A stretch of 64,000 nt of DNA from Chondrosia reniformis. Lineage: Eukaryota > Porifera > Demospongiae > Chondrillida > Chondrillidae. This document shows, one piece after another, positions 4,668 to 44,257 of this stretch. A program made the position numbers and the translations under genes. Within the stretch, counting starts at the first letter, position 1, and each line of letters begins with the position of its first letter. The notes beneath the pieces are model-generated. The model saw only the letters and a list, made by a program, of their open reading frames with translations. It was not told the DNA's origin and did not search any database. The DNA is taken from NCBI GenBank assembly GCA_947172415.1, contig OX359195.1, forward strand, positions 806,001 to 870,000. The letters are read 5' to 3'.

Positions 4668-7600
4668 ATGTCAAGACTTAGTTTAACACTCCTTCCAACG
4701 ACCTATCGCGTCTGTAAGACTTGCGGGCAGACCCACGAGGAAGGCAAGAATCATGTGTACGACTATCCGGACGAGGTAGAGGAAGAGCTACAGTGTCACA
4801 TCTGTTTCCAGCCGCTCATCGACCCAGTTGACACGCCCTGCAGACACACCTTCTGCCGAGTGTGCATCCACAACCACTTGAAGCAGTCACCAAAGTGTCC
4901 CCTGGACCGGGGGGTGGTGCAGGCCAAGGACATCAGACAATCTAGTATTCTGGTCCGCAAGCTGCTAGACAAGCTGAGAGTGATTTGTCCCAACAACGGC
5001 TACTGTGAAGACATGATGCAGCGATCTGTTATTGAGCAGCACCTGAGCGTACAGTGTCTCGGGACTTATGTAGACTGTCCCAGAAAAGAATTGGGGTGTG
5101 AGTTTTACGGCCCCCGGTGTAATTTGGAGGAGCATCTGTGGAGCTGTAGTTATGCACCAGACAGAACTAAAGGTATGTTTCTGTGGGCATGTCCTTAGGG
5201 CGTGAGAATATCTGGAGCATCTGTGGGCGTGTTCTTAGGGTGTGAGAATACCTGGAGCATCCGTGGGGTGGGGTGTGATAGTATTTGGTGTGTCCCATGG
5301 AGTATGATTATTAGGTTTGTTCATGAGGTTTAGTTTAGAGTTCATTTGATTGTACGTATAATGTATTATTGAATTGCATAATTACCTCATGTATTCTATC
5401 TGAGTGGTTGTGCTAATGATTCAAAGTATAGTTTGTAATTAATTTGTTCATCCTACTTCCTAGCCACACTCTCTTCATTGGGTACAGTGTATTATCCTGT
5501 AATTGATAGATTTTCCATTATTAAGAGTAAAATCTATTAACGATTACTGGTGGTACAATAGAGGCCATAATATGTGTTCTATAATATTTGGTACTTCTAG
5601 GCCAGTGTTACTGTTATATAAACGTAATGTGACAGTTCTTTAAGAGTAGAGTTATTTGAAGGTTTACTCTTTCTCGTCCTCTCATCCTAAACTTTGCAAC
5701 TTTTAGTTAAAGTGTAGTTTGACCACAATTTGTTTCACAGATGACAAAACCTCTCCACTGGAGGTCGCCATTAAAATTTGTAATATTACACTGAAATGAC
5801 TTGTCTCCTCCTCCTAGATGAATGGTAGATGAGTTTGACGGATAATTGTCATTAGGATAAGTGTCATTCGATATGTCGGTCATTAGTGGTTAGCTAAGTA
5901 TTTGTTTCAGATCCTCAAGTGACACTAATTCTAATTAAGATAAATGTTGTCACGTGTGATTGAATGATTAACGAGATCCACCTTACATCAGTTCACATCT
6001 AAACAATTGCATTCGATGGCTAGCTTCACTGACCTGTGGAGCCCTCAAGATATGCCTTATGAAGTGTAATGAATTTGTCACATTAGATGAATCACTAGTA
6101 TGCAACTTTATAGGAGTGATAGCCTCTGATGGTTATTAATTTAATCTACTGCTGCAATTCACTGATTAGATTTGCATATAACTTATCAATGACCTGTTAA
6201 TGTACGTAGCTTTGTAGCACTCACCTTTCAGTGAGCCTGCTATTAGATCGCATCTTCTAAATCTAGTTTATTGTATTAAAGTTAAAGGTTTTCGTGTACA
6301 AACTGTGTTTAAAATTTCCATTGAAAACATGCTCAGACTGTTATATTGTACATATATTATTGTCCTGTATCCTCGTCCAAAGCTCTATAGGTTTGCCCTA
6401 CGTTATAAGTCCAGTGGATCAATCTGTTATGTTTTTATCTTTTGAAAGGATCATCTTTCGACTTTTAGAGCGTCTGAAAGAGTATTTTGGATTTTAGATG
6501 CTCTAAAAGTCAAAAGATGATCCTTTCAAAAGATAAGTTTGACGCAGTTAGAAGAAATCCTTATTCTATTATGTATTTACCTAGTCTCATAAACATGTAC
6601 GTATGTATGTGTATGTAGGAAATGGTACTTACACAGGGTCATAAGTGTACAGTGAGTACATGTTGGGATTTTGTAGATTGTTTAGTCTACTCTAAGCAAT
6701 ATCTCTACTGCAATCTGGAATAGGGATTTCTCCTACCTGCATCCTAAGACTTATCTTTGAGGCAGTGATTAATATCCCCCCAGTCTAAATGTTTGCCATT
6801 GAAGAAAACAAGTTGTGTCTTTAGATGCTCTAAAGTTCAGAAAGTGTACCATCTAGCTCTCTGATACACTCTTTAGTTATGTTATCATGTGAATTGTTTC
6901 AAGGTCAAAGTACTAAGTAGCATCCAGAAAGACTTCCAGGGTCACTGATAAAGGGTACTATTCCCAGAAACAGCAGTCTGGCCCAGTGGAGCAGAAGAAT
7001 TAATAGAAGACTCTTGTATCCTCATCCAAAGCCATTACTGGGTTTACTTCTCTATAATCCTTTACTGTAGAATAGATTTAGGAAAATTGTGTTTCGATTA
7101 TTTATCTACATAATACATATATAAATATGGCTGTCTGATGTTACAAAATGGTGCCTCTTAATGTTCTGATTATATGTACGTACGTACATACAGGTATGTA
7201 TCACATGCATGTAGTCACTCTGATTGTCACCTGACCATTCTCATTCAGGTCAATATCACTCCCATTCTATTTTGGTAATAAGGTATTCCTGTCATTCAGA
7301 GGCTAGCCATGAGTTGGAGATATAAACACGATCACATTCCACTACAATACGTCTGTGAGTGTTATCACTCCGAGCAATGTCTTTGTGTTCAAATAGCTGG
7401 CCTCATTTAGTGTTAGCAGTACATTGCTGATACACTGAGCAGTAATTGTCTCTGTCATTTTGTGAAATATTTTGTCCATATTCAGAAGTACACTATTTGG
7501 TATATTAAAGATCATACGTATATACATAAATAATCTAATACACCATTTTCTAGTACGTACATTCTACGTATGCCTACTCTGTAAAAAGCCTATAGGGGAA

Positions 7601-23857: not shown

Positions 23858-25257
23858 ATGGAGCAGAAGGCTGGCGATTTACACAAGTTCACTCGTAGCT
23901 TCATCAGGGTGGCCTGTAATTATCTAACAACTCAGTTAGAAGAACTTGGAACGATCGTTTCCCCCTCAGAATATCTCCGTGACTTTATAAACACTCTTGG
24001 TAATTCGGCCAAGATTACCACTGAAGTGACCATTGGCGAACAGCCTAGCCATACAGATTTTTGGAGTAGTGATATAGTAGGGAATAGGGAATTGCTGGAA
24101 AACATTAAACATCTCACCAAGGTTTTCTTTGATGAAATTGAGGAACGATCAGGGCAGAGTGAATTCTTTTATGCCCTCGAGATGCAGTGCTGGAGTAGCA
24201 TTGTTACGAAGCTAACGCAAAGGGAATGTAGCACGGCTGAAACAGCTGCGCTAATGCAGTTTTCTATAACAGGCCCGATCATTCATTTTCTATCCGACCT
24301 TGGAGGCTATAAGGTAAGTATTTATTCCAACAAAGGAGATGGAGATACTAAGATTTCTCCCCTTTTATATGCAGATCAAAAGGGAGGAAAAAGGGGCAGG
24401 GTTATATATAGAGGAAGAGACGGAACCAGAAGCAAAGACTCCAAGAGGCTATGCATTGTGGACTTTGAGACGGGAGTCATGGAGTGGTGATGTCGTGGCT
24501 GTAATCGTTGAAGCGAAATTGCACAGGAACTCTCATATTGCTGTTGCCCAGGTAATTTTGTGAAGCTGTTTATGTGCCTATTGCCCATGAATGCAAATGC
24601 TTATATATACTCACCATATGCATGGTCATGCACCATGTGTGTATTCTTAATACATTACAGGCAATTGGTTACTACATTGCGTTTACAGCTCCAGATCCTG
24701 CTAGGGTAATGCCACTTGTTTTTGTACTCACTGAGGAGGTTATACACTTGGTGCTGTTTCCATTTAAGAATGAAGAAAAGAGCTCACTTGTGAATGCATT
24801 GGCAATCCAATTTCCACTGTGGACTGAAGACGAGGGATCTAGCAACGAATTTAAGTTGCCACGGCTTTTGAATTTACAGTTGCTTCACATATTGGCCTCA
24901 TTGGAATTGGCACAAAAGTTGGATGTCTTTTTGAACATCGAATACACATACTCTGATGCAACAACAAAGCTGCACCTGACTAATAGGATTATTTCTGAAT
25001 CCGAACATTTAAAACAAAGGAAGGAGGAATTGTACGTGGAATTGAAAAGGAAGGACGCGGAATTGAAAAGGATTAAGGACGCGGAATTGAAAAGGAAGGA
25101 TGCGGAATTGAAAAGGAAGGACGCGGAATTGAAAAGGGAATTGGAAGAGAAGGATGCGAAATTGATGAGACTGCAAAAGGCATTATTGGAGGAGCAAGAC
25201 GCGGAAATAAAGAGATTGAAGGAGGCACTTCAAGTACAAGAAAGACAAAGACAATAA
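23858..25257 (+). CDS. PD-(D/E)XK nuclease-like protein with coiled-coil tail
   Basis: Three exons, 23858-24313, 24375-24551 and 24661-25257, all phase 0, 409 aa. The N-terminal 150 residues are helical and not recognised. Exon 2 ends in a hydrophobic strand with GD (D191), then VIVEAK (E198, K200), continued across the junction by AQAIGYYIAF. This D-ExK-QxxGY order is the signature of the PD-(D/E)XK fold, which includes many restriction-type and recombination nucleases. Residues from about 330 form a charged coiled coil with seven-residue KDAELKR repeats. The nuclease call is a motif-level inference. It lies divergent to, and about 80 bases from, the possible start of the ankyrin/death-domain gene. 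Introns are very short (61 and 109 bases). Confidence 0.75.
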
Positions 25258-26941: not shown

Positions 26942-29900
26942 ATGGCGACATCAAAAGTGAGTTATTTATTCAGTGTATCTTTTATTTTCGTCTAACGTTA
27001 TTTATCTGTGTTTTGGTTTGCCCACGACTATCAATATTTACGGATAAACAGATGCGGTGAACCCTACTTTGTGTTAATTCTTTTATTTGTGTAATTCTAT
27101 ACACAGTATGCTTTGAAACGTAAGGTATAGACTGGAGATCGTCTCTAAAGACCATAGCAGCTTAGTCTCTATAAATAGCTTCCCGTAAAAGGGTCGATAG
27201 TCAGATCCGAACGACAGTGATAATTCCCCTCAAATTAAAATGTAATCGGAGCTAGATGTCTTTGGTTATCAATTTCCAATTTCTCTATTGTTAAACTGAA
27301 ATGCCTTCTAGAACCCTTCAGTCATGTATCGACGAGCTAATTCTAATACTTTATAGCTACTCTGATGTGATATCCATTAATGTTATTGCTAAGTGCGTAA
27401 CATGGATCCTTTGGGAAAGTGTATTTATTAAATTTAAGATTTAATGTGTACTTTCAAAACAGTTTTATTTCCTTTACGATAAAATTTACGTGTTTTATCA
27501 AAAGGAATGTACAATGTCATAGCAAGGCATTAAGGGCTATTCCTTGCAAACGCAGTATACGAATCATTATTATCATTGTGTTCCTGAGCTGAACCATATC
27601 TGTGAGCCTGATGTATTAATCGGGGCTTCTCGATCCCTTTTTTTAGCACTTGCTGTTTAAAGTTGTGTTTTCTTAATTATTTGTAATTATTGTTGAATTA
27701 CAACAGTTTTACAAGTCCTTGTTCAGTGTAAATTGTATAAGGAGATGAAGGGAAGTTAGAGTGCTCAGTGACCAGTATTAAGGTTCATTATATAGGTCAC
27801 CACTATAGAGAGTTTGACTGTATAAAGACTATAGTACCATCTCCATAAGAAAGGAGGATTAATGTCTTTTGGTATTTGTTCCTTTGGGAATGTTATGTTT
27901 CGCATGTCCAAGCATGGAAAGTGATCATCGATATATTGAAAATGCAGATCTCATATCCAAATCTCTTGTTTTTCATTGGTAATTGACACTATTGAAGAAT
28001 GGCTTCTAAATATAATGGGAGGTTTTAATGAATAAAGATAACCTTCTGTATAAACAAGTAAAAATTAATGTTTACTTATGAAACCAGGGCCGTATCTAGC
28101 TATGGGGCAGGGGTAGCAACTGCCCCCCCAGAGAAACTGGCTTCAGAGTATAATGAAATACTATTCGTGTTCATAGCAGCTAGCTACTGAGCTATCATGG
28201 ACTTACCTGCCCCAATGAGCTGCTTCAGTCGAGGTTTCGCTCGTCCGACATCCAGCTACCGGGTATATACGTACGCACAAGTACGGTCTCGAACAATCTC
28301 AACAATAATATTAATCTGTTAGACAGTTTTCCTCCTGGTTGCCCCCCCCCTTGCAAAAAAGTTATGTACGGCCCTGGAAACTGTTTATTTTTGATATGCT
28401 AATCATGTGTTGGTTGCAAACTATGTTATCTATATATTGAGAGTGCTAGAATGTGTATTTGTTGCTATCCATTCCTTCATGTAATAACAGTACCATACAT
28501 TATTAGAACATTAATTGTTTAGCCTAATTCAGCTTTGAAAATTTGGAAATTTAGTTGTGTTGAAATCCTTAAATTTTTGTACGTATATACCAGTTTGATA
28601 TATTTTAAAAAAATAATGTGAGCTACATAAACATGCATTACATACACTATACGTACATGTATTATATGTTATTTTAGGGTTGAGTAGTTTATATATGACA
28701 TTGTAAATGTACACACACACACATTATAATGCCCGGCCATTTTATTCATTGTCAGTGATATCTTCCTAATTGGTCCAGTTATCTAGGACCTTATTATCTG
28801 GCAGCATTAGATGAGTAGATTAAATATCAAATATTATCTTATATTTTGGGTGTGTTAAATGTGTTGTTAACTAAAGGTGTGTAATGTTGTTATACCAAAT
28901 CTTTGCAATTAGGAGATTACTTCCTAAACCAACTGAACAGTAAATTAGGTACAAACTAAAGTGGTGATTACTGTCACAATGTCATTTTGTGTTTTATATA
29001 TTGGTAGGTGTGTATACATAAAATTAACTGAAATGTGTCTCTAAGCTAATACCCACAGGTCCAGAGTGAATATTTTACAGAATCCCTATGTTTGCCCTCT
29101 AACAGACAATTAAGAGATCATATCCTTTAGTTGCTTATTATTGTATGTGTTCCTTAACCACCATCTTGAGTATAAATATTGACAGAAAATCATAATGCTT
29201 CACTTATAGAGGAAATCCCTTCATTACTACAGTTTACAAACTATAATTTTAAGAGTATAGTTTACATTATTGAAGGACATAATGGTGTTTAATAGCATAT
29301 TGACCTGGTGTGGCTTACCAATTGAGACTACTGGCTACAAAGGTCTATATTATTTATATGTACCTAAAGGTAGAGTTCTTAGGAATAGGATATATGATTA
29401 TTCGCTTGATTTCCCACCCATCCATCCACAATGTAAGTTGTAATGAGATTTGATTTTGAAATTGGCTGCAATTTCAACTCAATTTAATATTTACTATAAA
29501 TATACAATGCTCATGTTACACTTTTAAACTGATGCATATGAATGTGGTTCTATAGTTACTTTATATTAGTGATTTAAGGCTGTAAATATGTAGATACCTC
29601 ATTTTTTATATAGCAACCATTCATAGCTATTAGTAGTAATAGTATGTATGACTTTGGAGTCAAAATATACCTCTTTTTGGAATTGCAGCATATATTTCAT
29701 TTCCTCAAATTAGATCATTTTACATATAACATAACAAGAATCACACATTATTTAATGCATTCATTGTTCTTTGTATTGTTCACTATGAGGAATAATTAAT
29801 TTAAAGGCCAGCTATTTTGCTATTTTGTAATTTACCTCTATCTCCTGCTTAGTACATTTAGAGAAATTAGACTCAGAAATTATTTAATTTTTAGAAGTGG

Positions 29901-32900
29901 TCACTTTAGAGTTTTTATAAGTCTGTAAATGTCTTATATGGATGATAGCATAGTAAAATTTCACTCTATCTTACACTATGTACGTACTATACACTCGTAC
30001 CATTGTCAAGATAAAGTAGAAATATACACCCAACTAATGTAGAGTATTTTCACTGTGTATATTACTTAAAGAGAATTGAATAAAGGTTCTGTTGAAAGTG
30101 CTTACAATATGTATTTCCGTTTTGACAGAGTTTCCTACTAAGTTTGTAACGGATGAAAAGTTCCACTTTTCCTTGTTTTTGTAATGTATAAGCTGCTTAT
30201 ACAAAACACACTGCTGTCCCTAATTGGAATCAGTAGACATTGGTTCTGTGTGATGCACTTTCACTTCATATTAGAATTGTATTTTTGAAGTGCTGTATTG
30301 AATGTCGCTGCATTCGCCATGTCTTCATTTAGGCTGACATGCTAGAATTCCGCTATTCTCCCTAGACTGTTTAGGATGTAATTATCACAAATGAAGGATG
30401 ACTGTAATGAAATTTTAAAAATTACGTCTGTTTATTTTTTGTATTTTTAATTTATATATATACAGTTAGTTGTTTCTACCAGTTTCTATTTAATGTGTGC
30501 ATAGTGAGTCTACGTATATATACACACCCTATGTATACTTGATGTACGTATGTATGTACATCTACAATATGACATACGTATGTTGTTTTTCATATATTAG
30601 ATCTACGTATGTATGTATGTACGTATGTATGTATGTTCTAGTCTTTGTATCTACAATTCCACTTACGTAGATGTAATACATGCAGCATGTTGACAATGGA
30701 TTGCTTGAGCAATATCAACACTTTTTATGTAGCAGTGTCGAGTCACTGATTTAAATAAGTGTTGCTGATGCACAATAAGTCTATCTTCAATATAAAGAAT
30801 ACAAGAATTTTTTCTTGCCATTTTATGCATACAGTAAGTACAGTAAGTATGAAGTGAACAATTACTGGCAGTTGTCATGCCTTACTGATCAAATGACAAA
30901 GATCTCATCTTAATTGATTTGCCTTTGGGTCATACAGTGGTAGTGGTATTTTGCATTCCATGTTCACGTGTATACACATATCTGGTGAATAAGAGGCATT
31001 CTTCTCAGCATGGTGTGAACAAGCTAGCTTGTTTGTATGTATTTGAAAATGTAACTTGATATCACATGATATCACATGACTGCCCACTTGCCATACGTGC
31101 TTAGAATGGAGCGTAATTCCAATGTGAATGATCTGGCCATATCCAGTGACACAGTCTCACACATACACTATTCCCACAGCTTCATCTGTTAACATGTCTT
31201 CTGTTACCTGTCTACCATTCAAACTTGAGATCAGTTAAATATTTATTGTTAGAATTTGACCACTTTGAGTCATTAGACCTTCTGATATGTAGCAACACCA
31301 TATATGGTATACATGCATGAGCTGTTTTCTGTTATCTGAACCAGTTCATCTGACATTCAGAGCTATTATAGTACCAACTGTCAGTCTGCCATTATATTGT
31401 GAGCTTTATTAATAACTACCTCCGTACATAGCTAGTCTCACTCCCATAGGTCACCACTATAGAGAGGTTGACTGTATAAAGACTATCTAGTCTCACTCCC
31501 ATACGTAGGTCACCACTATAGAGAGGTTGACTGTATAAAGACTACCTAGTCTCACTCCCATAGGTCACCACTATAGAGAGGTTGACTAACTGATAAAAGA
31601 ATGTACAGCCAAATAACGATGGCAATTTAATTACATTAAATGGTTTCAGTGAAATTTTAAAGGTTACAATAGAAGCCATTTTAGTTTTCAGTGATGCCAA
31701 TTTCATCCACAGCCGCACAGGGTAATTCATCAGTGTAACATAGTTCACAGACCACCAATCGTAATTTGACAGATGTTTAAGTATCAGTTGGAGAAGACCC
31801 ATAAGTCCAACGTTTGGTATGAAAGACTTACTAACTGCAACATTTGAAAGATTATTATCTAAAGACTTAAATGTGACCTGCTTTTACATTATACATACGC
31901 GAGTGTAAGATTTGAGCACATTTTTGTGTTATTCATTTACCCTCACTTCACCTCACCCTCACCCTCTCCTCCTTCACCCTCTACCTCACCCTCTCCTTCA
32001 CCCTCTCCCTCTCCCTCACCCTCTCCCTCACCCTCTCCTTCACCCTCTCCCTCTCCTTCACCCTCTCCCTCTCCTTCACCCTCTCCCTCACCCTCTCCTT
32101 CACCCTCTCCCTCTCCCTACCCCTCACCCTCACCCTCACAGGACAAGTATTAGGGTGAAGGTGAGGGTGAAGGTGATGTGTACCAGTGTGTGTGTGTGTT
32201 TTTATGCATTTCTTTACCTACTCAGCTGATTGTTGTTTGTCTGCACTTACGTAAGTCTTTTGTTGAGTTATTTGTTATTGAATAAGGTGCCCTAATTGCT
32301 CTTTTACCAACTTTCAACTTAATGTGTTTATCCGCATGGAAAGGTAAACATGTGTATTATTCTTATCTTGTAAGAGTAACCTTTCTATGGCTGCCTCATT
32401 TTGGTTTCTACTTACATAGGAGATCTATACATTAAGTACGATATACGTATACCTTTTACTCTCCACTGATTATGATCTACATAGTGTCATGTACGTAAGC
32501 TAGTATGTACCACAATATATGCTGATTTGTCTCAGCTGAGGAAGGGACTAGAAGTATAAATTTTAACCATACCTAATACTTATAAATGGTTGGTTGGATA
32601 TGATTTGAGCATCAGCAACACTTATTATTAATCAAAGAATTAGGACGTTTCAACCCGTAGGTCTTCCTCAGCAATAAATGGAAACGTCCTAATTCTTTGA
32701 TTAATAATAAGTGTTGCTGATGTTCAAATCATATCCAACTGACCAATTATGAACGCAACAAGTACCTCTTATTACATCATACTTATAAATATACGTATGT
32801 ATGTGTTTGTCATGGAATAGTTGTTTTAAAGCTGTTTTCCAATGGTAGCTGTCAGGTATTATAGTTGTAATTAATACAAGGAACTTAGGTCACACAAAGG

Positions 32901-35900
32901 ATTACATATCCTCTAAACTTGGAAAATTCCCTCTTTTTCTGAGGTTGTATTGTAGTGCTTCTGTAGTGTACAAATGATAACTTCTGTTCTTAATTGTGAG
33001 GTGCCCAATCGATAGGTTTTACCTAGACACTTAATATGTAGGCTGTATTACACCACCAAGCAATTCATTCAATGGTCTTAATGTCATTCATAGGAGTTGG
33101 GTAACCATTACACGGAAAGATCTCATTGTATAGAAAGGCCTGATAATGTGTGTGTTTGTAACAAAAGGCATATGAAGTACATTTACAATGCCCAAAGTGA
33201 TTCAATCCTAAAGATACGTACGTATGTACGTATGTATGTACAGCGTATGTATATATAAACACATTATTCTAAAATATTATGGTTATCATACATACCTGTG
33301 ATGTGCTAGGGACTAAAACACATTTTTTTAGACTAATTACTAGGACAAACATACAGTTAAGCTTCTTTTCTTCCTTTCTCCACTGTGACATGTTATACAA
33401 GTGGCTACACATACATAGAAACAGTATAAAGTTCTGCTGTACTGCATACTATGTTATACAAGTGGCTACACATAGAAACAGTATAAAGTTCTTCTGTACT
33501 GCATACTATGTTATAAAAGTGGCTACACATATAAACAGTATTAAGTTCTGCTGTACTGCATACTATGTTATACAAGTGGCTACACATAGAAACAGTATAA
33601 AGTTCTTCTGTACTGCATACTATGTTATAAAAGTGGCTACACATAGAAACAGTATTAAGTTCTGCTGTACTACATACTGATGTGATGCTATTGTTTGTGG
33701 TATTGTGTTTCCTGTAGAGTTACACAGTCTCCCAGCAACCCTACCAGAATGGAGTCAACCACTCCAACAATAAAATATTACTAAGACATCCTAAGACAAG
33801 AAGGATTAGCGGGGACCAGTACAGTGCCGATAGTGGTAGTGGATCAATGGTAGAAAATCAAATTGACCAATCACAAATGAGCTGCACTGGTGTGCATGTC
33901 GAAGCAGTATCAAATATACTATCCTATCAGATTAATTTGGGCGAAATTGGAGATGAAGTTTCCGTAGGTAAGTATCTATTTAACTGTGTTGCCAGTTGCT
34001 ATGTATTTACTATGTACGTACATATGGACAGAAATTAGCTTTTCCTTACACTTGTTTCTATAAGGTGAATGTGGATATTAGAAATTGCTGTATTAGCTGT
34101 TGAAGGATAGTTATTCTGCGTAACAGTATTCATCTAACATAATTTTCTAAATATTTTAGCTCAGAACTGTTGACCACTTCTACTCTTTGTGAATAATTTT
34201 AAACACCAATCTCTTACATGCTACATCTACTTTAGAGTAAAAAGGCCTATAGGGAACTAAACCTAGTGAGAGCTTTGGATGAGGATACAAGAGTTTTCTC
34301 TTCTTCTTCTCCACTGGGCCAGATATATATATATATATATAGTAGACAATTTAATATAAAAGAAATGAATTACATATAAGAAATGAATTATGTCAAGGCT
34401 TTCTGGATAATATATTCATTACCACTGAAAACTGAAGGCTTTAAGATTTAGCACTTAAAGTCCATTTATGAGACATGAGTGGGTGGGGTAAAATCCACAG
34501 TCAAATGGAGATGATACTGAAAACTTATATAATTCATTTTTATGAATTGCTTGTGAGATCATTAGAAGTAATGTGGAAATGCTGCATATTGAAGTTACCA
34601 CTTACCTCATCCTGCTACATGTCTGGTATTTTCACTATGGTGTGGGTCATTGCTTGAATTTAACAAGGATAAGTAGTTAGTGTGAATATACCCTTGATTA
34701 GCTGATTAGCTAATGCAAATACAAATAGTACATTACAGTGAACAGTACTTCAGGAAGAACCACTTGCTAATGAGTGCTAATTGGTGCTAATTGCATTCAA
34801 ACAAAATAGCAACAAAGCCACCTCTTTAATCTCCCTCTTACTGTTACCTTAATATAAAGAGTTTCCAATAATTGGTTTTATAACAATGGTATTATTTTTG
34901 TTACACTTTGTCATCCTACACATTTCTCCCGCCCACTCATATCTCCTTTGAAGTACAATAACATGCTACAACTACTTTAGAGTAGAGTACTTATACCTAG
35001 TGAGAGCTTTGGATGAGGATACAAGAGTTTTCTCCTTGTTCTCTTCTTCTCCACTGGGACGAGTACATATAATAAGATAACATTCTATTACATCTTAGCC
35101 TTTTCACAGACACAGTTCAATATACTCTACTTTAATAGACTTGTAATTAGCTATAATTCTAATGCAAAAATTTGTCTCCATATAATGTGTGTTGCTAGGT
35201 GAGAACAGCAATGAAGAGTACAAAGATTCACAGAGTAAGATCTCAAAGCAAAGTGGTAAGATGAGAAAACGAAAGGACAGTGTGAAGGTCCGTCTAAACA
35301 AGAAGAACCAAGATTCTCCTCGTAGCTCAGCTATCAGCAGAGATTCTGGGTTAGATGTCAACACTTCCCCTCAGAGCCCAGAAAAAGTTTCTCCTGTAAC
35401 TCAAGCAGGTAACCATGGCAATATACATTACTGCTATGAATGTATGCTACCTCGAAATGAGAAATTACTTATAATACACATGTGGATGTTTTATAAGAAG
35501 AGAAGTGTTTTTGTACTGAGGGATTATTAATTTTGTTTTTTTTTGAATCTTTTAATTAATTAATGTAATATCTGTAACCTTTGACCTTTGACCCTTAGGA
35601 CATCCACCCTTACAACGCACTGCCAAGCTCTCTGAATTGTGTATAGTCACAATTGTGATTCCAGCTACTATTATGACTGGTAACCGAGGAATGGGGGCAT
35701 CCCTGCAATTTCGGTTTGGGCCTTATACCAAAATTGAATTTCTAAGAATATCAATTTTGAAAGTAAGTAGAGAATTTGAGTTGTAATACAAACAAGGGAA
35801 CGTTTACAAAACTTTTACAGTTTTTTGAAAATCCCTTTTAGCACTTTTGTACATGTTTACGCTGAGAAATGCTGCTGGTATATGTAGAAAGTTCTTAGAC

Positions 35901-38900
35901 ATTTTTAGCATTTTTAAACAAGTATACACACTTATTTAAATGTACAATAGAGACTAACTACATTTGTACTATTTAACTACATTTTAAAGATCTTCTGTCA
36001 ATATGTTCTTGTACAAGTCCCTGTACATGAGGTGTAAGATATTTTGTAAGGTGAATAAATCTTTCTTCCCAAACTGTTCATTCTAATACATTATATATTT
36101 ATTTCTTGTGTATCTTCTGATTTCTCTGAAGCAATTCAGTGAGCGTTTCAAGATTCCTCCATCAGAACTGTCGAAGCTTCATCTGTGTCACTACCTGGAG
36201 GAGGAGGAGGGATGGGAGTGGCTTGAGGAGGAGAGATCACTTAACCATTACAACCTTCCAAGAGAGGTACGTATACGTATGTATCAATATTGTGGCCTGT
36301 TTCCTTATATGGATTGTTTGTCACATGTTGTACATGTGACATACCTATGTCATCTTGGATTGTGGTGTCTGTATTGATACTATCATATGAGACATTTATG
36401 GGTTGTGTAACTGGCGCAGTATATGACCAATTAAAAGGCTTTTGGGCCCTAATCCGGTTACATAATATCATGACCCCTCATTAATGTCATGTTACACATG
36501 CGCTTGATTAATTTGGTTGGTTTTGTTGATAGTGCAAAGTTGATCTGAAGCAGTATGATGCCACGTATCACGATGTTCGAGTGGTGCTTCCTCACCTCAG
36601 TCGGACGCTATATGTGGAATTTGATCAATTCAGTACATGTGGAGATATAACTCGGCAAGTGAGTACCATTACGTAACTGGCAGAAGTCCCACCTCCCCAC
36701 CACCCTTAAGTAGCCTTAGGTAGCAGGGAGGCCATTACCATATATGGTAGGATTGATGTACTAGTCAACAATGCTGGTATTAGTTCCCGCAGTCTGGCCT
36801 TGGATACGGACATAGCAGTGGATAGAAGAGTTATGGAGATTAACTTCTTTGGGCCTGTGGTCATTTGAAGGTTTACCAATTTGGATGGCTGGGAGGTGGT
36901 CGCTTGTTGCCATTGTTAATGTGACCTGTGTATTTAGTATGTCAGCTGTATGCTTGTAGGTGTTAGAGGTTGGAGAGCCAGACCTTCATGCCAGAGATGG
37001 GTACAACCTTTATCATGTCAGAAATAGGCAATCGTGAGTGGAATATATTCTTCTCTTATGTGTTGTTATGTATGTATTACAATGTGAAATGTTCTTATGT
37101 AAATATGTAGCTATATAGATATAAACATACGTATATAACAATCTAAACATTTTTGCAGTATTATACACACGTAGGTCTCGTTTCCTTTAATTTAGTGAAT
37201 CATGGGCCCAGTCTGGCCGAGTGCTTTTATTTTGAATGTGTCTCTTAAATAAATCATTATTATCATTATAAACCACCAATAAACTAACCCCACTGAATTA
37301 GCTGATGAAAACCTACGGGTCGAAACATTCTATAATTTAAATAAGTTGTTGCTGAAGCTCAGAATCGTATCTATAGCTACATACATATATAGATACAGTA
37401 TGTGTAATCTATCCAATGAGATTCTTACATGAGTTGCTATTCTTTTATCTAGTCTTGATGTCAATGAAAGTTTGGTGAATTATAGCATTTTATCTGATGA
37501 CATTCTGGAATGTAGGGTAAGTACAATCAGTGTGTTAAACTAGCAACTAGTAACCCATCCAAACCTTCTATCCATTGAACCATTAATCCAACCCTTCTGT
37601 TTTCTATACTCAGATGGCTTTGGGTAAAATGCAATCGGTTGTGATTGTAGTTAATATACCTTCAATTAAAAGCATAAGAAAAATGAAAGTCAGCTTAGAT
37701 GAAACAGTTGGAGAATTAATAAGGTAGTTCACATATAAAAAATCTAAGATACGTACCATTTTCCTACATGCTATGCTTATTCTGTAAAAAAGCCCATAGT
37801 GGTTTTCTGAAATTCCAGAACTATTCTTGAGGTTTTTCACTTCAATTCCAACCTCGTAGTAAAATGATAGCTCTGTCTACTATCCCTTATGTAATGTAAA
37901 TCAGTTACTGGGATTATGTATGTAACTATTTCAAAGAATACGGTGGTACTCTCTAAACTGGGATAGCCCAAAAATATGGCCACCCTATTCAGTGTATTAA
38001 TTATCAATTATTTGCATTCATTTTTTGATTATGCAATCCAAAGAGGAGTCCACATTAGCTTGTAACTTGTGTAGTACGTATTTATATGGAATTCTTACAA
38101 TATAATTAGCACTCTAAAGAGGAGGATTCCTGACCCGGATAATCCAAAATGGCGGCACATGCAGCTCTTCATGGTGAGCAGGAAGGAGGCAGACCCTGGT
38201 ATTTGGATGGATGATTACAAGTTCCTTGCCAGTTACAAGCTTCAAAATGAAGTCAGTCTGAGATCTGAGATATACAGTACATGAATTTACCAATTTACGT
38301 AGTGTAATGTATGATCTGCATGTTTTAATACTAAATTTAGCATGTTGCCCTAGAAACAGTAATTATTAATTATAATCACACATTTCAGGATAAACTGGAA
38401 TTTAAACCAAAATATCGACCAATGATTTTTGAATTATCTGGTGGAGTTTCATCCAGGGACGTTGCTTATCAAAATCCAGAGTTGCTGATTGGGGAGAACA
38501 CAACTGTTTCAATGGTCATTGATCTTCTTTGTCAAACATGGTAAGAGTCTTTATATAATGTATTCGTATGTACATGTATACGTACAATACGCTTTTAAAT
38601 TGTGTTTACAATGGAAGTTGAACTGCAGCAAGTTTAGGTGAACTTTGTACAAGTTACAGTTACTGTAGAACTTTGTATGAATAATGTCCGAAAGGTATAT
38701 ACATAATCCAATACTGCTAAAGTCCTATTAAGCAGTGAACTCAAACTCTAAAGCTAATCTAAATCTGCTACTAGCAAAGGAGAGACTCTGGTTCCCATTA
38801 AGTGGACCTCAGCTCCACTCATAAACTAATTGCACTCCTCTGGAGACATGAGTGGGTGGGGTAAATCCAGAGTCTACTGATTCACAAGTTCTCATCTCTC

Positions 38901-41900
38901 ATGTAAGTGTGTCCTTTTGTCTGCCCTGTCTCGTTAGCTCACTGGAATATGATCCTCTATTTTATGGGCTCTACCTCCACGATGAGGTGGAGTTACCAAA
39001 GAAGGCCAAGCTTTGGGATTACCTTGATGGCCGCTTCTCCTATGGTTACCAGGATACCATGGTGCTCCATCTCAAGCCTAGACCTGTGCTCATACAGCTG
39101 GAAGGAAATGATGAGAGGTTTGTTGCAAGTTTATAATATAAAGAAAATTGTGTTATTTATACACTTTTCGTTATTAGTAAATCAATTATGAAGTTTGATT
39201 TCAGCCTTCCCTGTCGAATCTTAAGGAATAATCTTGGAAGAAAATTTGGACTGAGAAATTCCTCATTTTATGCTCTAAAGTATCAAGGTACTGTGTGTAG
39301 AAATGTGATTGGTTTCAGTGCCTTTCAACTAAATTATGTATGCACATGTCTGTACAGCTGATTCAGAAAGGATTGGTTGCGCCATCATCATCATCATTAT
39401 CTGTTATGACAGCTTTTGTTGTAAAGTAGCTACGTAATTTTAATATAATTATACATACAAATTGCTGTGTAACTGATGTTTATTCCAAAGACTGCATTAG
39501 TCACATTATGATGCTATGGTGATGCAACTTTTGTTTTTGTGTTTTTCATTTTGCAAGCAAAACCTATTTTGTCTTAAAACATATGCAGAATTGTACAATA
39601 AATATGTTGCATGAGGCAGCTTGTGATGTTTTTCAAACTTAGCTAGAGTTCCATTCCAATACTGATCCAAAAGAAGAACTCTTTTTTCAGTAATATTATG
39701 AATTATACTTTACAGTATGAATTATACTGTGCACTATAGTTTTTAACAAGCAGCCATCCTTATTATCTTTTTTTCATTTATTATATACTGTATGTACAAA
39801 TGTGCGTATATAGGGTTTCTTCTAAACCTGGAGCTGTCGCTACATGATCAAGGGGTGATGGAGGATCACCCAGTCACAATGGTCAGACAGGACCGGCGAG
39901 TCTCAGAACCCTTCTCTCATGAACCTCCCGTGGCAACCAAGGGAGAAGCAACCTCAGATCAGCTGACGGAAAGTGAAATCAAAAAAATTCAAAGAGAATC
40001 CTTTCTGGTGGAAGGTAAGGTGACACATTGTCACCAAATGATTGATATGTGGTGAAAGTTCAGATTAAAATTCTAGACTACTGAATCACCTTTTTTAAAT
40101 TAGTAAGTCTTAGCATAAAGTGGACTATAACTTATAAATGGTTTCGTGGGTCAGTTTATAATATGATATGTGCTACCGCAACACTGCGTTCTAGTATGTA
40201 CGTATTCGGCAAAATTATATAATTGCTAATTATAGTTGTTGGTATCAAATCTATTTTATTATTAGAAAGGTACTTACAGTAAGGTTTTAGAACCCTAGAA
40301 AGAAGAGATAGAACTAACTGTTCATTTACCTACTACAATCAGATATTTAGCTTTCATGCTGGTGCTGACATAGATTGATGTGATAAAATAGAGATTCATT
40401 GCTACGTTGTAACTATGATAGAGGAATTAATGAGCTCTCCGTAGCAGGGCAGAACAATCACCATTATTTAAGGATGTTTCAGTCCGCAGACCTTCTTCAG
40501 CTGATAAAACACTGATGGGTTATGCCTCAGACAGAAAAAACTGATCCCTACTACTGAAAGCTCATTAATTCCTCTATTGTAGATTGATGTGTTGATTGTA
40601 TAAACATGGTGCTCTTTTCTTTGTAGATTTCGACTGCCACATTTGGTTGGAGGGCGAGGATAGTGATAGAAATATTCGTTACGACAAGAAAAAGGGTTCC
40701 AAAGAAGTGCTTGTGACAGCTGCAACCTTTAACAAGCTTGTTGAGAAACTTACCAGCAGTTCAGATCACGGTTGGTGTCTATCCAATATAGCATACTAAC
40801 TTACGTGTATATACGTACATAGAACAAGGATTTCTTCTGACTGCATCAAACTTATCTTTTGGATGGTTCATCATTTGACTTTTTTTGTGTGTCTAACGAA
40901 GCAGTTTGTTAAATCTTCTCATTTTATCCCTGAGGATCTTCCAAAAGTTAACCTACATATTTTCTGTACAATCTCCATACTACATATGCACTGATAAAAG
41001 TAGACAATTAATTAATCTTGTACACAACATTACATACTTTTATATTTACTATATACTGTATATAACTGTATATGATATTGTATTGTAAATATATGTATGT
41101 ACAAACATGCTGTAGATATGCAGTTTGTCAAGACATTTTTGCTAACTTATCAATCCTTCACTACACCGGAAAGTCTTTTGATGAAGTTGATTGAACGCTA
41201 CAATGTGATACGTCCGGTTGGCATGCCAATGAAGAATTTTTCAATGTTTAGGACAACAATTCAGGTAAACAACTGTTTTTCTATAAACACATGTGTATAC
41301 CAGTAGCTACATTACTGTAAAACTTTACTGTGTGTAAATTAAAAATGATAAAAGTATTATTTATATATAACTCTGATATATTGTACATTTTTACTGTAAG
41401 CCTCTACTGTATGTACTTAAATTAAAAATTGACTTTACAGACATACTCTGACAATCTAGTATAAAAATTGTACATTTTCCACTCACAGGTTCGTGTAGTA
41501 AATGCAATTAAGCTGTGGATGGAAACGGGAAGAGAGTTTAAGGACAATGCGGCAATGCAAGAAAATGTTCTCGCATTTATCAATGACACTTTAAAATACG
41601 ACCACCCCCTTCACTGCAGGTCACTAAGAACAGCTCTTCTAGTTGTCAAGGTAACACAGTTGCTTGAGAGATACATACGTATATACGTATATAGGTAATA
41701 GAATATCTTTGATTATAATTAAGTGTAACCTTTCGATAGGTAACTGTAGGCATAATGAACATCGATATTTTATAACAGAAAATCGCTATTTAGGAACCCC
41801 CTGGAGATCCTCTTAGATAAACACTCTGCTAAATAATCTCACAATGATATTATCTGCCAGTTGTTTCATTTAGGTTCTCAGTTCCACTTTATTTGTAAAT

Positions 41901-44257
41901 TTGTCCACAAACACTGTATTTATTTGCAATATAATTGTGTTACAATAGATTATTCATGAGCCTATACGTATATGTTATTATGCATATTTACGTATTTGTA
42001 ATACTTTGTTTGATAATTGCTGTTAATTTTTCTAAAATAAATTAGGGAGTTGCGTCCAAGAAAATGGGGAAAACCTTTTCTGAACAGCCTCCTGCCATTA
42101 AGTACCCGAGGAAGACTGGTTCCGTTTTGTCTCTGTTTGACTTTGACCCGGAGGAGATTGCCAGGCAACTGACAATAATTGACTATTCTCTTTTTATGAA
42201 GATCAAACCATCTGAATGGATGAACCAGGTAAGAATGCAATACCATATTTAGCTGTTTAAGCTATAATCATAACCTTCTACATGACCATTTTTGAATTCA
42301 CTTTAGAAGATACAGCACCTACGTATGTTCTGTACCTCAATTTGTTGTGCTAATTTATAATGAATGAGTTTTTTCAATCCTGCATCTATGCATATAGGCT
42401 CTAATTTGATTTACTTTGGAAATCAAGTGTACTTAGTTTCTAAAATAATAAATGTTCAAATGTTATTGTCCATCATATATGAGTTTAGATTTCAAATTTA
42501 ATTCCAACCATTAATTTCCTTTTATTTATTTTTGGAATCCTTGATTTTTCTAAAACTGTAACAGGCATGGAACAAATCAAAGAAAAAGCATTTAGCACCA
42601 AATCTTCTTCGAATGATCGAGAGGATGAACAATCTCACATTCTGGATGGCTACAGCCATTCTCTCACAAGCAGACATCCAGGATCGGGTCAGGAGAATCA
42701 TTCTCTTTGCACAAATTGCTGTGGTAAGCAACTGATCTTATCACCAGACTATACATACATACTTATAGGGAATTGTTTGTAGGATAAGCTAATTTAGTCT
42801 ATTGAAAATTAAGGGAATAGACTTTAATGCTTTAACTTTTGATCAGTATTCTTTTGTCACTAGATTTCTCATCCACTCATGTCCCCTACAAATCAGCTAA
42901 TGAGTGACACCAAAGTGTATTTAATGGAAATCAAAAAGGGAGACTCTGATTCCATTAAATTAACTTTGGTTCTACCCCTCAGCTCATTGTGCTCCTCAAG
43001 AGACGTGAGTGGGTACATGGAGTAGAATCCAGAGTTAATTAATGATAGTAGTTTAGAGTAGCTCTTCTCTGATCTGAATTAATTGCACTACTTCTGTTTA
43101 TAGCACCTCTACAAGATGCAGAACTTTTCATCTCTGGCAGCCATTTTGGATGGGTTCCTTTGCGGTCCTGTAGACAGACTGAAGAAGACATTTGCTAAAT
43201 GTGATAAATCCACAATCAAAAAGGTGGAGGAGATGCAGAAAGTATTTTCACCCTCTCATGGGTTCAAAGCCCTGAGACAGGAACTAGAACATGCAAGTGG
43301 TCCGTGTCTACCATACTTGTAAGTATTAAGGGTAGATGACATGGATAGTGTCTTGAATGATCTTATTATAGTTAAAGGACTGTAGTAATCTACAGTGAAA
43401 CTTAAGGTCTTAAGTCTATTAGCCGATATGTCATGTGGTATTACAAATATACTAAAAATGTACTTATTACTATCGGTATGCCATACCAAATGTTATTTAT
43501 CAATGCCTATTATATTACCAGAACGTTTATAAAACATTTGAGGTCAGAAAGAGAGTTTTTGTATTCTATAAACTGTTTGTATACCATTTCTCATCTATAG
43601 GGGTATATTCACATCAGACTTAACACATTTAGATGACGGTAATAAAAACTTTACTGACGATGGTTTAATCAACTTTACCAAATGCAGATTAATTTATAAC
43701 AGAATCAGAGATTTCTTGATTTATCAGGTATGAATATTCTAGCAATGCTTCTATGACAATTAGTTAAGCTGCTGAATCCTTGAATTAATTGAATGAATTT
43801 ATTTGTTTTGTCTTAGTCTGAAGTAAACGCTTACTTACGTAGAGGATTAGACTATTTCCTCACCAAATTGAAATATACATAATAGTTCTTTTTATAATGC
43901 AGATATTTTATCTATCTACATCTACACGTTCTTGTATATAGGATAATCCCTACAACTTTGAGCAGATTACTGCTTTATATAACAGTTTAACAAAATTTCA
44001 CTTCCTGGACCTTGACACTTTATATGATGTCTCTCAAAGGGTGGAGCCAAGGTACGTTCTAGATACGTAGTTAAAACTGCATGGTAGATCTAAAGATTTT
44101 AGGTATACATTTTATCATTTTACAAATAAAATGTATTTTTTTATTTTATTTCCAAAGTTATTATGTAGAAAGTAAATGTTAAATCACAACATACGTACTT
44201 GTACTCTTCTCTTTATATTTCTCTATGTTTTTATACTGTAGGGCTGCAGGGAAATAG
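26942..44257 (+). CDS. RasGEF with multiple talin F0/F1-like ubiquitin-fold modules
   Basis: Twenty-three exons, 3171 nt, 1056 aa, phases consistent throughout: 26942-26956, 33718-33967, 35199-35408, 35599-35762, 36132-36266, 36533-36658, 36960-37033, 37453-37516, 37614-37723, 38110-38251, 38389-38540, 38938-39117, 39205-39287, 39814-40014, 40627-40770, 41116-41264, 41489-41650, 42046-42228, 42565-42723, 43104-43318, 43601-43727, 43942-44051, 44242-44257. A Ser/Lys-rich N-terminus comes first. Exons 4-14 hold serial ubiquitin-like folds; exons 9-11 resemble the talin F0 domain (GIWMDDYKFL then YKLQNEDKLEF). Exons 15-17 are RasGEF_N and 18-22 the CDC25 catalytic domain (FDPEEIARQLT, NNLTFWMATAIL, LGIFTSDLTHLDDG). 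It should load GTP on a Ras/Rap GTPase, plausibly at adhesions. The tiny first exon (five codons, 6.8 kb upstream) is the least certain part; the substrate is not predictable from sequence. Confidence 0.85.
28085..28376. mobile_element. Short TIR element with 5-bp target duplication
   Basis: Begins CAGGGCCGTA and ends TACGGCCCTG (inverted), 292 bp long, flanked by GAAAC at 28080-28084 and again at 28377-28381. Close to each end is a run of C (seven, nine). Non-coding, so a non-autonomous DNA transposon; the superfamily is not settled because TIRs of this type are usually seen with 8-bp duplications. Confidence 0.75.
31432..31588 (+). repeat. 55-bp satellite, three units
   Basis: Units contain GGTCACCACTATAGAGAGGT and GACTGTATAAAGACTA then CTAGTCTCACTCCCATA. 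The same unit forms arrays at 52637-52891 and 63357-64000, and a lone diverged unit lies at about 27797-27830. Confidence 0.9.
31940..32150 (+). repeat. CT-rich simple repeat with terminal palindrome
   Basis: Imperfect tandem CCCTCTCC/CCCTCACC units over about 200 bases. The end CACCCTCACCCTCACA is followed after a short gap by AGGGTGAAGGTGAGGGTG, so the 3' edge can fold on itself. The open frames here are artefacts of the repeat. Confidence 0.9.
32588..32750. repeat. Foldback repeat, family C, near-perfect hairpin
   Basis: Arms of about 60 bases (each holding CAGCAACACTTATTATTAAT and AAAGAATTAGGACGTTT, or complements) are nearly identical inverted copies. The loop contains, on the minus strand, CTGAGGAA, the GACCT-AC-GGGTT hairpin and GAAACGTCC. 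Confidence 0.85.
33390..33680 (+). repeat. 57-bp tandem repeat, five copies
   Basis: Units with GTGGCTACACATAGAAACAG and GTACTGCATACTATG. Copies 2-3 and 4-5 alternate between two variants (TATACAAG..TTCTTCTG and TATAAAAG..TTCTGCTG), giving a 114-bp higher-order period. The unit is a multiple of three, hence the spurious open frames on both strands. Confidence 0.9.
34225..34330 (-). repeat. Family B repeat, partial copy
   Basis: Contains AGTAAAAAGGCCTATAGGGA, AGAGCTTTGGATGAGGATAC and CTTCTCCACTGGGCCAG. A second partial copy lies at 34965-35060, also in RasGEF intron 2. The two flank family A debris (34440-34500). Confidence 0.75.
34965..35060 (-). repeat. Family B repeat, partial copy
   Basis: Contains GTGAGAGCTTTGGATGAGGA and TTCTTCTCCACTGGGAC, in the same orientation as the copy at 34225. 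Confidence 0.7.
36745..36925 (+). pseudogene. DHRS7-like short-chain dehydrogenase fragment
   Basis: In RasGEF intron 6 (36659-36959), the plus strand encodes GRIDVLVNNAGISSRSLAL, then DRRVMEINFFGPVV before a stop. NNAG and the following EINFFG segment are hallmarks of the classical SDR fold, in the form seen in DHRS7-type enzymes. A stretch resembling the next strand (GGR then a hydrophobic run) follows only after a stop and a one-base shift. No Rossmann glycine motif upstream and no YxxxK downstream is visible. This is a broken fragment, with no sign of use as an exon of the host gene. Confidence 0.75.
37265..37370 (+). repeat. Family C repeat fragment
   Basis: Has CTAA...TTAG hairpin bases followed directly by CTGATGAA, ACCTACGGGT and GAAACATTC, then AAGTTGTTGCTGAAGCTCAG, the outer end of the family. 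It lies in RasGEF intron 7. Confidence 0.6.
38775..38880. repeat. MITE family A fragment
   Basis: GACTCTGGTTCCCATTAAGT on the left and GACATGAGTGGGTGGGGTAA near the right edge match the family A arm. It lies in RasGEF intron 11. Confidence 0.65.
40400..40590. repeat. Foldback repeat, family C, copy
   Basis: Outer arms ATAGAGGAATTAATGAGCTC and AGCTCATTAATTCCTCTAT (inverted). On the minus strand the interior has CTGAAGAA, GGTC-TGCG-GACT and GAAACATC. It lies in RasGEF intron 14. Confidence 0.7.
42865..43045. mobile_element. MITE family A, diverged full copy
   Basis: Left arm CCACTCATGTCCCCTACAAA, right arm CTCCTCAAGAGACGTGAGTG, inverted and about 150 bases apart, with the GATTCCATTAAATTAACTTT centre shared with the 38.8-kb fragment. 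It lies in RasGEF intron 19. Confidence 0.7.

Follow-up and report, generated by a model that had tools for sequence, protein, structure and literature searches.

Introduction

How a Ras exchange factor comes to stand behind a series of talin-like modules in a sponge gene, and what such a protein might do, are the questions raised by a locus of Chondrosia reniformis. The window analysed here is a stretch of 64,000 bases (contig 7, 806001-870000) from a genome of 117,379,552 bases in 15 contigs; positions are those of the window unless a contig is given (C7 for contig 7, and so on). A sequence-only reading of the same DNA had described a RasGEF preceded by four or five ubiquitin-like modules, with exons 9-11 matching talin F0, and had proposed that the protein may bind and activate Rap, possibly as a positive-feedback device.

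Gene structure and surrounding sequence

The gene comprises 23 exons on the + strand, with GT-AG ends at 22 of 22 introns in a junction test on the DNA, and the spliced frame is open for 1056 residues up to a TAG stop at 44255-44257 (Table 1). The earlier exon numbering and the ends at 35599 and 44257 were reproduced, exons 4-23 joining by GT-AG junctions without a stop. The shakiest call is exon 1, a tentative one of 15 nt only that lies 6.8 kb upstream. Exons 2-3 are without a recognised domain in the Pfam scan. Donors are poor at exon 10 (GTCAGT), exon 12 (GTTTGT) and exon 15 (GTTGGT), although that of exon 10 marks an intron position common to talin.

Table 1. Features of the gene, in window positions.
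Feature	Position	Strand	Evidence
Exon 1, putative (tentative), start codon, MATSK	26942..26956	+	ATG and donor GTGAGT, in phase with exon 2
Exons 2-3 (33718-33967, 35199-35408), N-terminal region, aa 6-158	33718..35408	+	GT-AG, open frame
M1, F0-type, exons 4-6, aa 172-269	35637..36565	+	shuffle z, HMM, F0 intron, Trp
Intron 5, phase 0, shared F0 position in M1	36267..36532	+	splice and alignment column
M2, F0-like, divergent, exons 6-9, aa 270-350	36566..37625	+	shuffle z, HMM
M3, talin F0, exons 9-11, aa 351-439	37626..38415	+	FERM_f0, PDB talin match, z
Intron 10, phase 0, shared F0 position in M3	38252..38388	+	same column and phase in sponge talins
M4, F1-type, exons 11-12, aa 440-528	38416..39079	+	shuffle z, position after M3
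M5, F1-like, exons 12-14, aa 529-594	39080..39890	+	shuffle z, HMM with F1, motif
Linker M5 to REM, exons 14-15	39891..40712	+	frame runs on through intron 14
REM / RasGEF_N, exons 15-17, aa 665-761	40713..41572	+	PF00618 5.2e-22
CDC25 / RasGEF catalytic, exons 18-21, aa 824-1002	42154..43688	+	PF00617 3.1e-58, whole profile; 2ije 8.3e-38
Exons 22-23, C-terminus and stop codon TAG	43942..44257	+	splice reading

Upstream on the same chromosome, at a distance of about 115-150 kb, are two partial copies of the GEF half, both with frameshifts in their tblastn pieces. The first (C7:683000-692500) holds exons 16-20 and a piece of intron 14; the second (C7:706000-715999) holds exons 20-22, with exon 21 present twice and one piece 97.8% identical over 935 bases. 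The N-terminal modules were found in neither of these two stretches. A dispersed element with the core GATGAGGATACAAGAGTTTTCTC occurs in two copies in intron 2, at 34278 and 35012, and relatives of it (79% identical) are present in the first partial copy. Tandem arrays are located at 31432-31587 and 31939-32139, and another, with 5.1 copies of a 57-base unit (33390-33683), stops about 35 bases short of exon 2 and could affect splicing or regulation. Intron 6 contains, on the + strand at 36728-36862, a fragment of a short-chain dehydrogenase/reductase (GRIDVLVNNAGISSRSLALDT...; adh_short, 2e-8), apparently a relic insertion. Further upstream, a gene of three exons (23858-25257, +) encodes 409 residues with C-terminal repeated (KRKDAEL) units of coiled-coil look; its Pfam matches are sub-threshold only (DUF6997, 0.029).

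Domain architecture

Three Pfam families exceed their gathering cut-offs within the same spliced protein, namely FERM_f0 (aa 359-436, 4.5e-12, in two stretches), RasGEF_N (78.5 bits against a cut-off of 28.3) and RasGEF, which is matched over positions 1-181 of a profile of 181, hence as a complete CDC25 domain; no other family was reported in the 1056 residues at E up to 10. In a scan confined to the N-terminal 442 residues, FERM_f0 improves to 2.2e-13 in three stretches. A phmmer search of PDB sequences with these 442 residues returned 18 matches at E up to 10, the best of them talin-2 (E 1.9e-4). Fifteen are named talin, and a sixteenth, MKIAA1027, is presumably talin as well; these 16 fall on M3 and the start of M4, and the other two bear unrelated names. 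The sequence itself shows the gene model, the homology of M3 to F0 and that of the GEF half. A single reading frame leads from the talin-type modules into the RasGEF, as had been proposed, and one gene very probably holds both a RasGEF and a talin-type F0. The N-terminal half looks like an expanded form of the ubiquitin-fold part of the talin head, and REM-CDC25 occupies the position that F2-F3 have in talin.

Five modules, M1 to M5, were cut by eye, with K.RP preceding M4 and M5. The sponge's own genome has two talin genes (C9:2335656 and C13:5187176) with well-kept F0 and F1 (FERM_f0, 128 and 119 bits), and these were used as references: each module was aligned pairwise with the F0 and the F1 of both sponge talins and with the F1 of a mammalian talin, against 5000 shuffles each. 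In a separate HMM test with 2000 shuffles, the shuffles scoring at or above the real sequence were counted.

M3 is with certainty a talin F0. Alone it reaches 34.2 bits with FERM_f0, over the cut-off of 26.9, and its comparison with the two sponge talin F0 gives z 11.7 and 11.5 (0/5000 each), which bears out the earlier assignment of exons 9-11. It also scores z 5.3 against mammalian talin F1, which counts against a clean division between F0 and F1. The case that M1 resembles F0 is strong: z is 5.8 against M3 (0/5000), 4.1 (13/5000) and 4.3 (4/5000) against the two sponge talin F0, and the HMM test with F0 gives 0/2000, at 14.0 bits for FERM_f0 alone, under the cut-off. For M2 the likeness to F0 is suggestive and the weakest of the five cases, with z 4.4 against M3 (9/5000), 3.5 (28/5000) and 2.8 (66/5000) against sponge talin F0, and HMM counts of 47/2000 with F0 and 7/2000 once M3 joins the model; alone it has 13.1 bits with FERM_f0 (same cut-off), and RA_2 matches the M2 stretch at E 0.023.

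The two modules that follow are of another kind. M4, joined to M3 by KYRP as talin F0 is to F1 by K.RP, bears a good resemblance to talin F1 (z 5.8, 4.0 and 3.8 against the three references; 0, 10 and 15 of 5000), with z 2.1 and 0.7 against talin F0; it has no Pfam match, and its HMM counts are 59/2000 with F0, 53/2000 with F1 and 239/2000 when M3 is added to the F0 model. M5 probably resembles talin F1 too (z 5.5, 2.7 and 2.9; 1, 90 and 64 of 5000) and is negative against F0, with HMM counts of 7/2000 for F1 and 430/2000 for F0, and it gave no score once M3 was in the F0 model; it likewise has no Pfam match, and carries the motif GRKFGLRNSSFYAL, to be compared with talin AAKIGLTNSDEYAL. M4 and M5 compared with each other reach z 0.8 only. 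M3 and M4 together give z 12.8 against F0-F1 of the C13 talin (0/500 shuffles), mostly the doing of M3. A duplication of F0-F1 as a pair was considered and rejected: M2 gives z -0.3 against M4 and 0.3, -1.5 and -0.6 against F1, and resembles F0.

As controls, 14 stretches of the same protein were compared with the five references, and 69 of these 70 comparisons lie at z 2.1 or below. The exception is residues 966-1056 against F0 of the C9 talin, with z 3.1 at 300 shuffles (one of 27 comparisons) and 3.3 at 5000 (38/5000), close to the 3.5 of M2; the same residues give z -1.2 to -0.1 against the other four references. In the HMM test the lowest of seven control stretches were 11/2000 (F0), 310/2000 (F1) and 58/2000 (F0 plus M3); by this test M2, M4 and M5 are unconvincing in part. 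The order F0-like, F0-like, F0, F1, F1-like, REM, CDC25, with all five modules as described, is nevertheless likely, our confidence having been lowered slightly by the single control at z 3.3. The earlier count of four or five modules can thus be set at five, unequally backed, in that M1, M2, M4 and M5 taken alone are below the cut-off or unmatched in Pfam.

A shared intron in the F0 modules

A separate line of evidence, independent of residue scores, comes from intron positions. A phase-0 intron precedes the last F0 strand in M3 (LQNE|DKLEF) and in M1 (LPRE|CKVDL), and the same column is interrupted in both sponge talins (LKDG|DVLEY and LKNG|DVLEY, the best-scoring splices chosen at that place). 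In M2 a phase-0 intron lies six residues further on, and M4 and M5 have no intron there. The shared intron points to descent from the F0 segment of a talin gene.

Catalytic domain and substrate

Compared with exchange factors of solved structure, the CDC25 domain matches best 2ije, printed as guanine nucleotide-releasing protein and taken by us to be RasGRF1 (8.3e-38). It is followed by SOS1 (5.5e-28), CDC25 (3.9e-27), RalGPS1 (2.7e-25), RAPGEF4, that is EPAC2 (6.2e-24), RasGRP1 (7.9e-24) and RasGRP4 (1.5e-16), and at the lower end by RasGRP2 (3.8e-14), second from the bottom among the listed families and a factor that prefers Rap, and RGL2 (1.2e-13). For REM and CDC25 together, SOS1 is the best solved match. 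This is a rank order of E-values among solved structures, without a tree and with C3G, PDZ-GEF, RASGEF1 and KNDC1 outside the comparison, and a substrate is not safely read from it; a Ras-type GTPase is the best guess. The proposal that the protein activates Rap finds no support in this order, RAPGEF4 and RasGRP2 standing behind 2ije and SOS1.

GTPase-contact residues

In the complex of talin F0 with Rap1b, K7 meets E37, and K15 and R35 meet D33; the exchange K15A/R35A in talin-1 drastically reduces Rap1b binding (PMC5701058). Dictyostelium TalinB requires K16 for Rap1 binding (PMC4861126), and K16 seems, judged from neighbouring residues, to be the K15 position. Aligned with K7, K15 and R35, M3 has Val, R368 and R388, and M1 has Val, R188 and K220; in M2 no basic residue stands at any of the three positions. 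Talin W61, which sits at the F0-F1 interface (PMC2977851), has its equivalents in W415 of M3 and W243 of M1. Homology to F0 is no proof of Rap binding, because the affinity of talin F0 itself for Rap1b is low (Kd about 162 uM) and the kindlin-2 F0, with two of the three basic residues missing, is reported not to bind it (PMC5701058). The residues of M3 and M1 would allow Rap1 docking; of the earlier suggestion that the F0-like module binds Rap1, a plausible GTPase-binding site stands, with K15 and R35 replaced by R368 and R388, and the K7 contact does not.

Comparison with known proteins

M3-M4 are collinear with the F0 (PF16511) of the talin head and the F1 behind it, keep the K15, R35 and W61 positions and share the F0 intron; the gene differs from talin by the extra F0-type modules in front and the extra F1-like one behind, and in the Pfam scan of its 1056 residues at E up to 10 there is no F2-F3 (FERM_M, FERM_C), no rod and no C-terminal actin-binding domain. 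With RasGRF1, SOS and CDC25 the sponge protein has the REM and CDC25 module in common, whereas the PH, DH or IQ parts that belong to the architecture of RasGRF and SOS are absent from its Pfam scan. The RA-domain exchange factors, such as EPAC2, PDZ-GEF and RalGDS, also have a ubiquitin-fold module for GTPase binding on the same chain as a CDC25 domain and would be alike if M3 binds a GTPase; the sponge module is instead of the talin F0 type, within an array of five, and Pfam RA (PF00788) has no match in the protein at E up to 10 (RA_2 at 0.023 only). Kindlin F0 and the SHANK SPN domain are likewise folds of the F0 type and belong to adhesion or scaffold proteins; SHANK3 is a weak match in the F0 profile search (E 0.044), and to our knowledge neither kindlin nor SHANK has a catalytic domain. 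Unlike the kindlin-2 F0, which is without two Rap1-contacting basic residues (PMC5701058), M3 keeps two as Arg/Arg.

Occurrence of the combination

Searched against its own genome at E up to 1, the N-terminal part gave 11 matches, all 11 to its own exons. A FERM_f0 search of the genome gave four matches, all within the two talins, and missed even M3; it is uninformative on other F0-like genes because exons are scored singly. An F0 profile that included M1-M3 was therefore of more use here, run over 5688 open frames taken from the window, from the loci of the two talins and from 13 stretches of about 5-10 kb each around RasGEF matches, both partial copies included; four of the 30 RasGEF matches of the genome (C2:8445262, C14:1017667, C13:6448438 and C13:6219781) fall outside these stretches. 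F0-like exons were found at none of the 13, and the clear matches were the window gene and the talins only, the best other match having E 0.74 on the strand opposite to the GEF of that stretch. Ordinary RA matches do occur elsewhere in the genome, and one of them (C11:6633182) lies about 7 kb from a RasGEF match (C11:6640249). Among viral and among bacterial and archaeal contigs, 12 and 13 pattern matches were obtained, of which none was confirmed. Open-access full text yielded no report of a talin F0 combined with a RasGEF, and a survey of 25 Dictyostelium RasGEFs, with many odd architectures, does not use the words FERM or talin in its main text (PMC1273635). As far as these tools reach, the talin-type array with a RasGEF is a real combination of known parts that is new to the literature, a RasGEF variant.

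Proposed mechanism and alternatives

From these homologies we infer the ubiquitin folds themselves, GTPase binding, substrate and location. M3, and perhaps M1, would dock on a GTP-loaded Ras-family GTPase at the membrane, most likely Rap1, in the mode of talin F0 and RA domains; the remaining modules would keep M3 positioned and may add lipid or GTPase contacts; and REM-CDC25 would then act on a second GTPase, most likely a Ras, and load it with GTP. The net effect would be an adhesion-linked Rap signal relayed to Ras, much as RA-domain exchange factors act between GTPases. Because talin F0 avoids H-Ras, the docking GTPase and the substrate probably differ, and a relay is therefore expected rather than a feedback loop. 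For this relay, which would begin with docking on Rap-GTP and end with an activated Ras-type GTPase, we put the probability at about 0.5.

The strongest competitor accepts the same protein and takes the array as a scaffold whose partners are lipids, a further adhesion protein or, in autoinhibition, the protein's own catalytic half, with no small GTPase involved. It would suit the loss of K7 in both M3 and M1, the lack of all three basic residues in M2, the contact of the talin F1 loop with the membrane (PMC2977851) and the failure of the homologous kindlin-2 F0 to bind Rap1b (PMC5701058), but at the K15 and R35 positions M3 retains Arg/Arg and M1 Arg/Lys, whereas the kindlin-2 F0 lacks two of the three basic residues; we regard the scaffold as a serious possibility, though on balance an unlikely one. 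Less probable still is the earlier idea that the protein activates Rap and uses F0 to bind this product. The F0 homology and the partly kept Rap1-contact residues agree with it, and product-binding exchange factors exist, SOS being named together with a positive feedback loop (PMC6767298); against it, 2ije exceeds RAPGEF4 by 14 and RasGRP2 by about 24 orders of magnitude in E-value, and with an order of 2ije, SOS1, CDC25, RalGPS1 and then RAPGEF4 such feedback is not the leading reading.

Two further explanations concern the gene itself. The model could have wrongly joined two adjacent genes, with exons 1-14 encoding a small adaptor that resembles a talin head and exons 15-23 a RasGEF of its own: the partial copies elsewhere on the chromosome carry GEF exons only, and intron 14 (612 bases) contains one ATTAAA, at 40064, and a possible alternative first exon, at 40163-40193. 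Phase and frame are, however, continuous from exon 14 to exon 15, which opens with the REM region and has no in-frame ATG, and that alternative first exon, the only one in a search restricted to donors starting GTAA, GTGA, GTAT, GTAC or GTAG, has a poor donor. The copy at C7:683000-692500 includes the piece of intron 14 that corresponds to 40060-40229, so that its edge is not a gene boundary. AATAAA does not occur in intron 14, which says little because it is also missing within 1 kb past the real stop. The split between exons 4-14 and 15-23, raised as a possible objection to the first reading, is disfavoured, and the DNA favours one gene; wrong joining seems to us quite improbable. A decaying or unexpressed gene without function, which the frameshifted partial copies about 115-150 kb away might suggest, is scarcely credible for a copy whose frame stays open over all 23 exons and which matches the REM and CDC25 profiles completely.

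Biological significance

A wider proposal, and a doubtful one, is that the gene represents a talin-headed family of Ras exchange factors. Its members would carry an F0-F1 array that binds Rap1 in place of the RA domain and would turn an adhesion-linked Rap signal directly into Ras activation. Such a family would go back to a talin head that lost F2-F3 and duplicated its modules; it would be present in sponges and missing in the animals used for work on Ras and integrin signalling. In talin, an integrin activator, F0-F1 forms the front end, and here similar folds, multiplied, would precede a Ras activator. Should M3 bind Rap1-GTP, this sponge would possess a one-protein link from the adhesion GTPase Rap to Ras, and the talin head would be a portable and duplicable array for docking GTPases.
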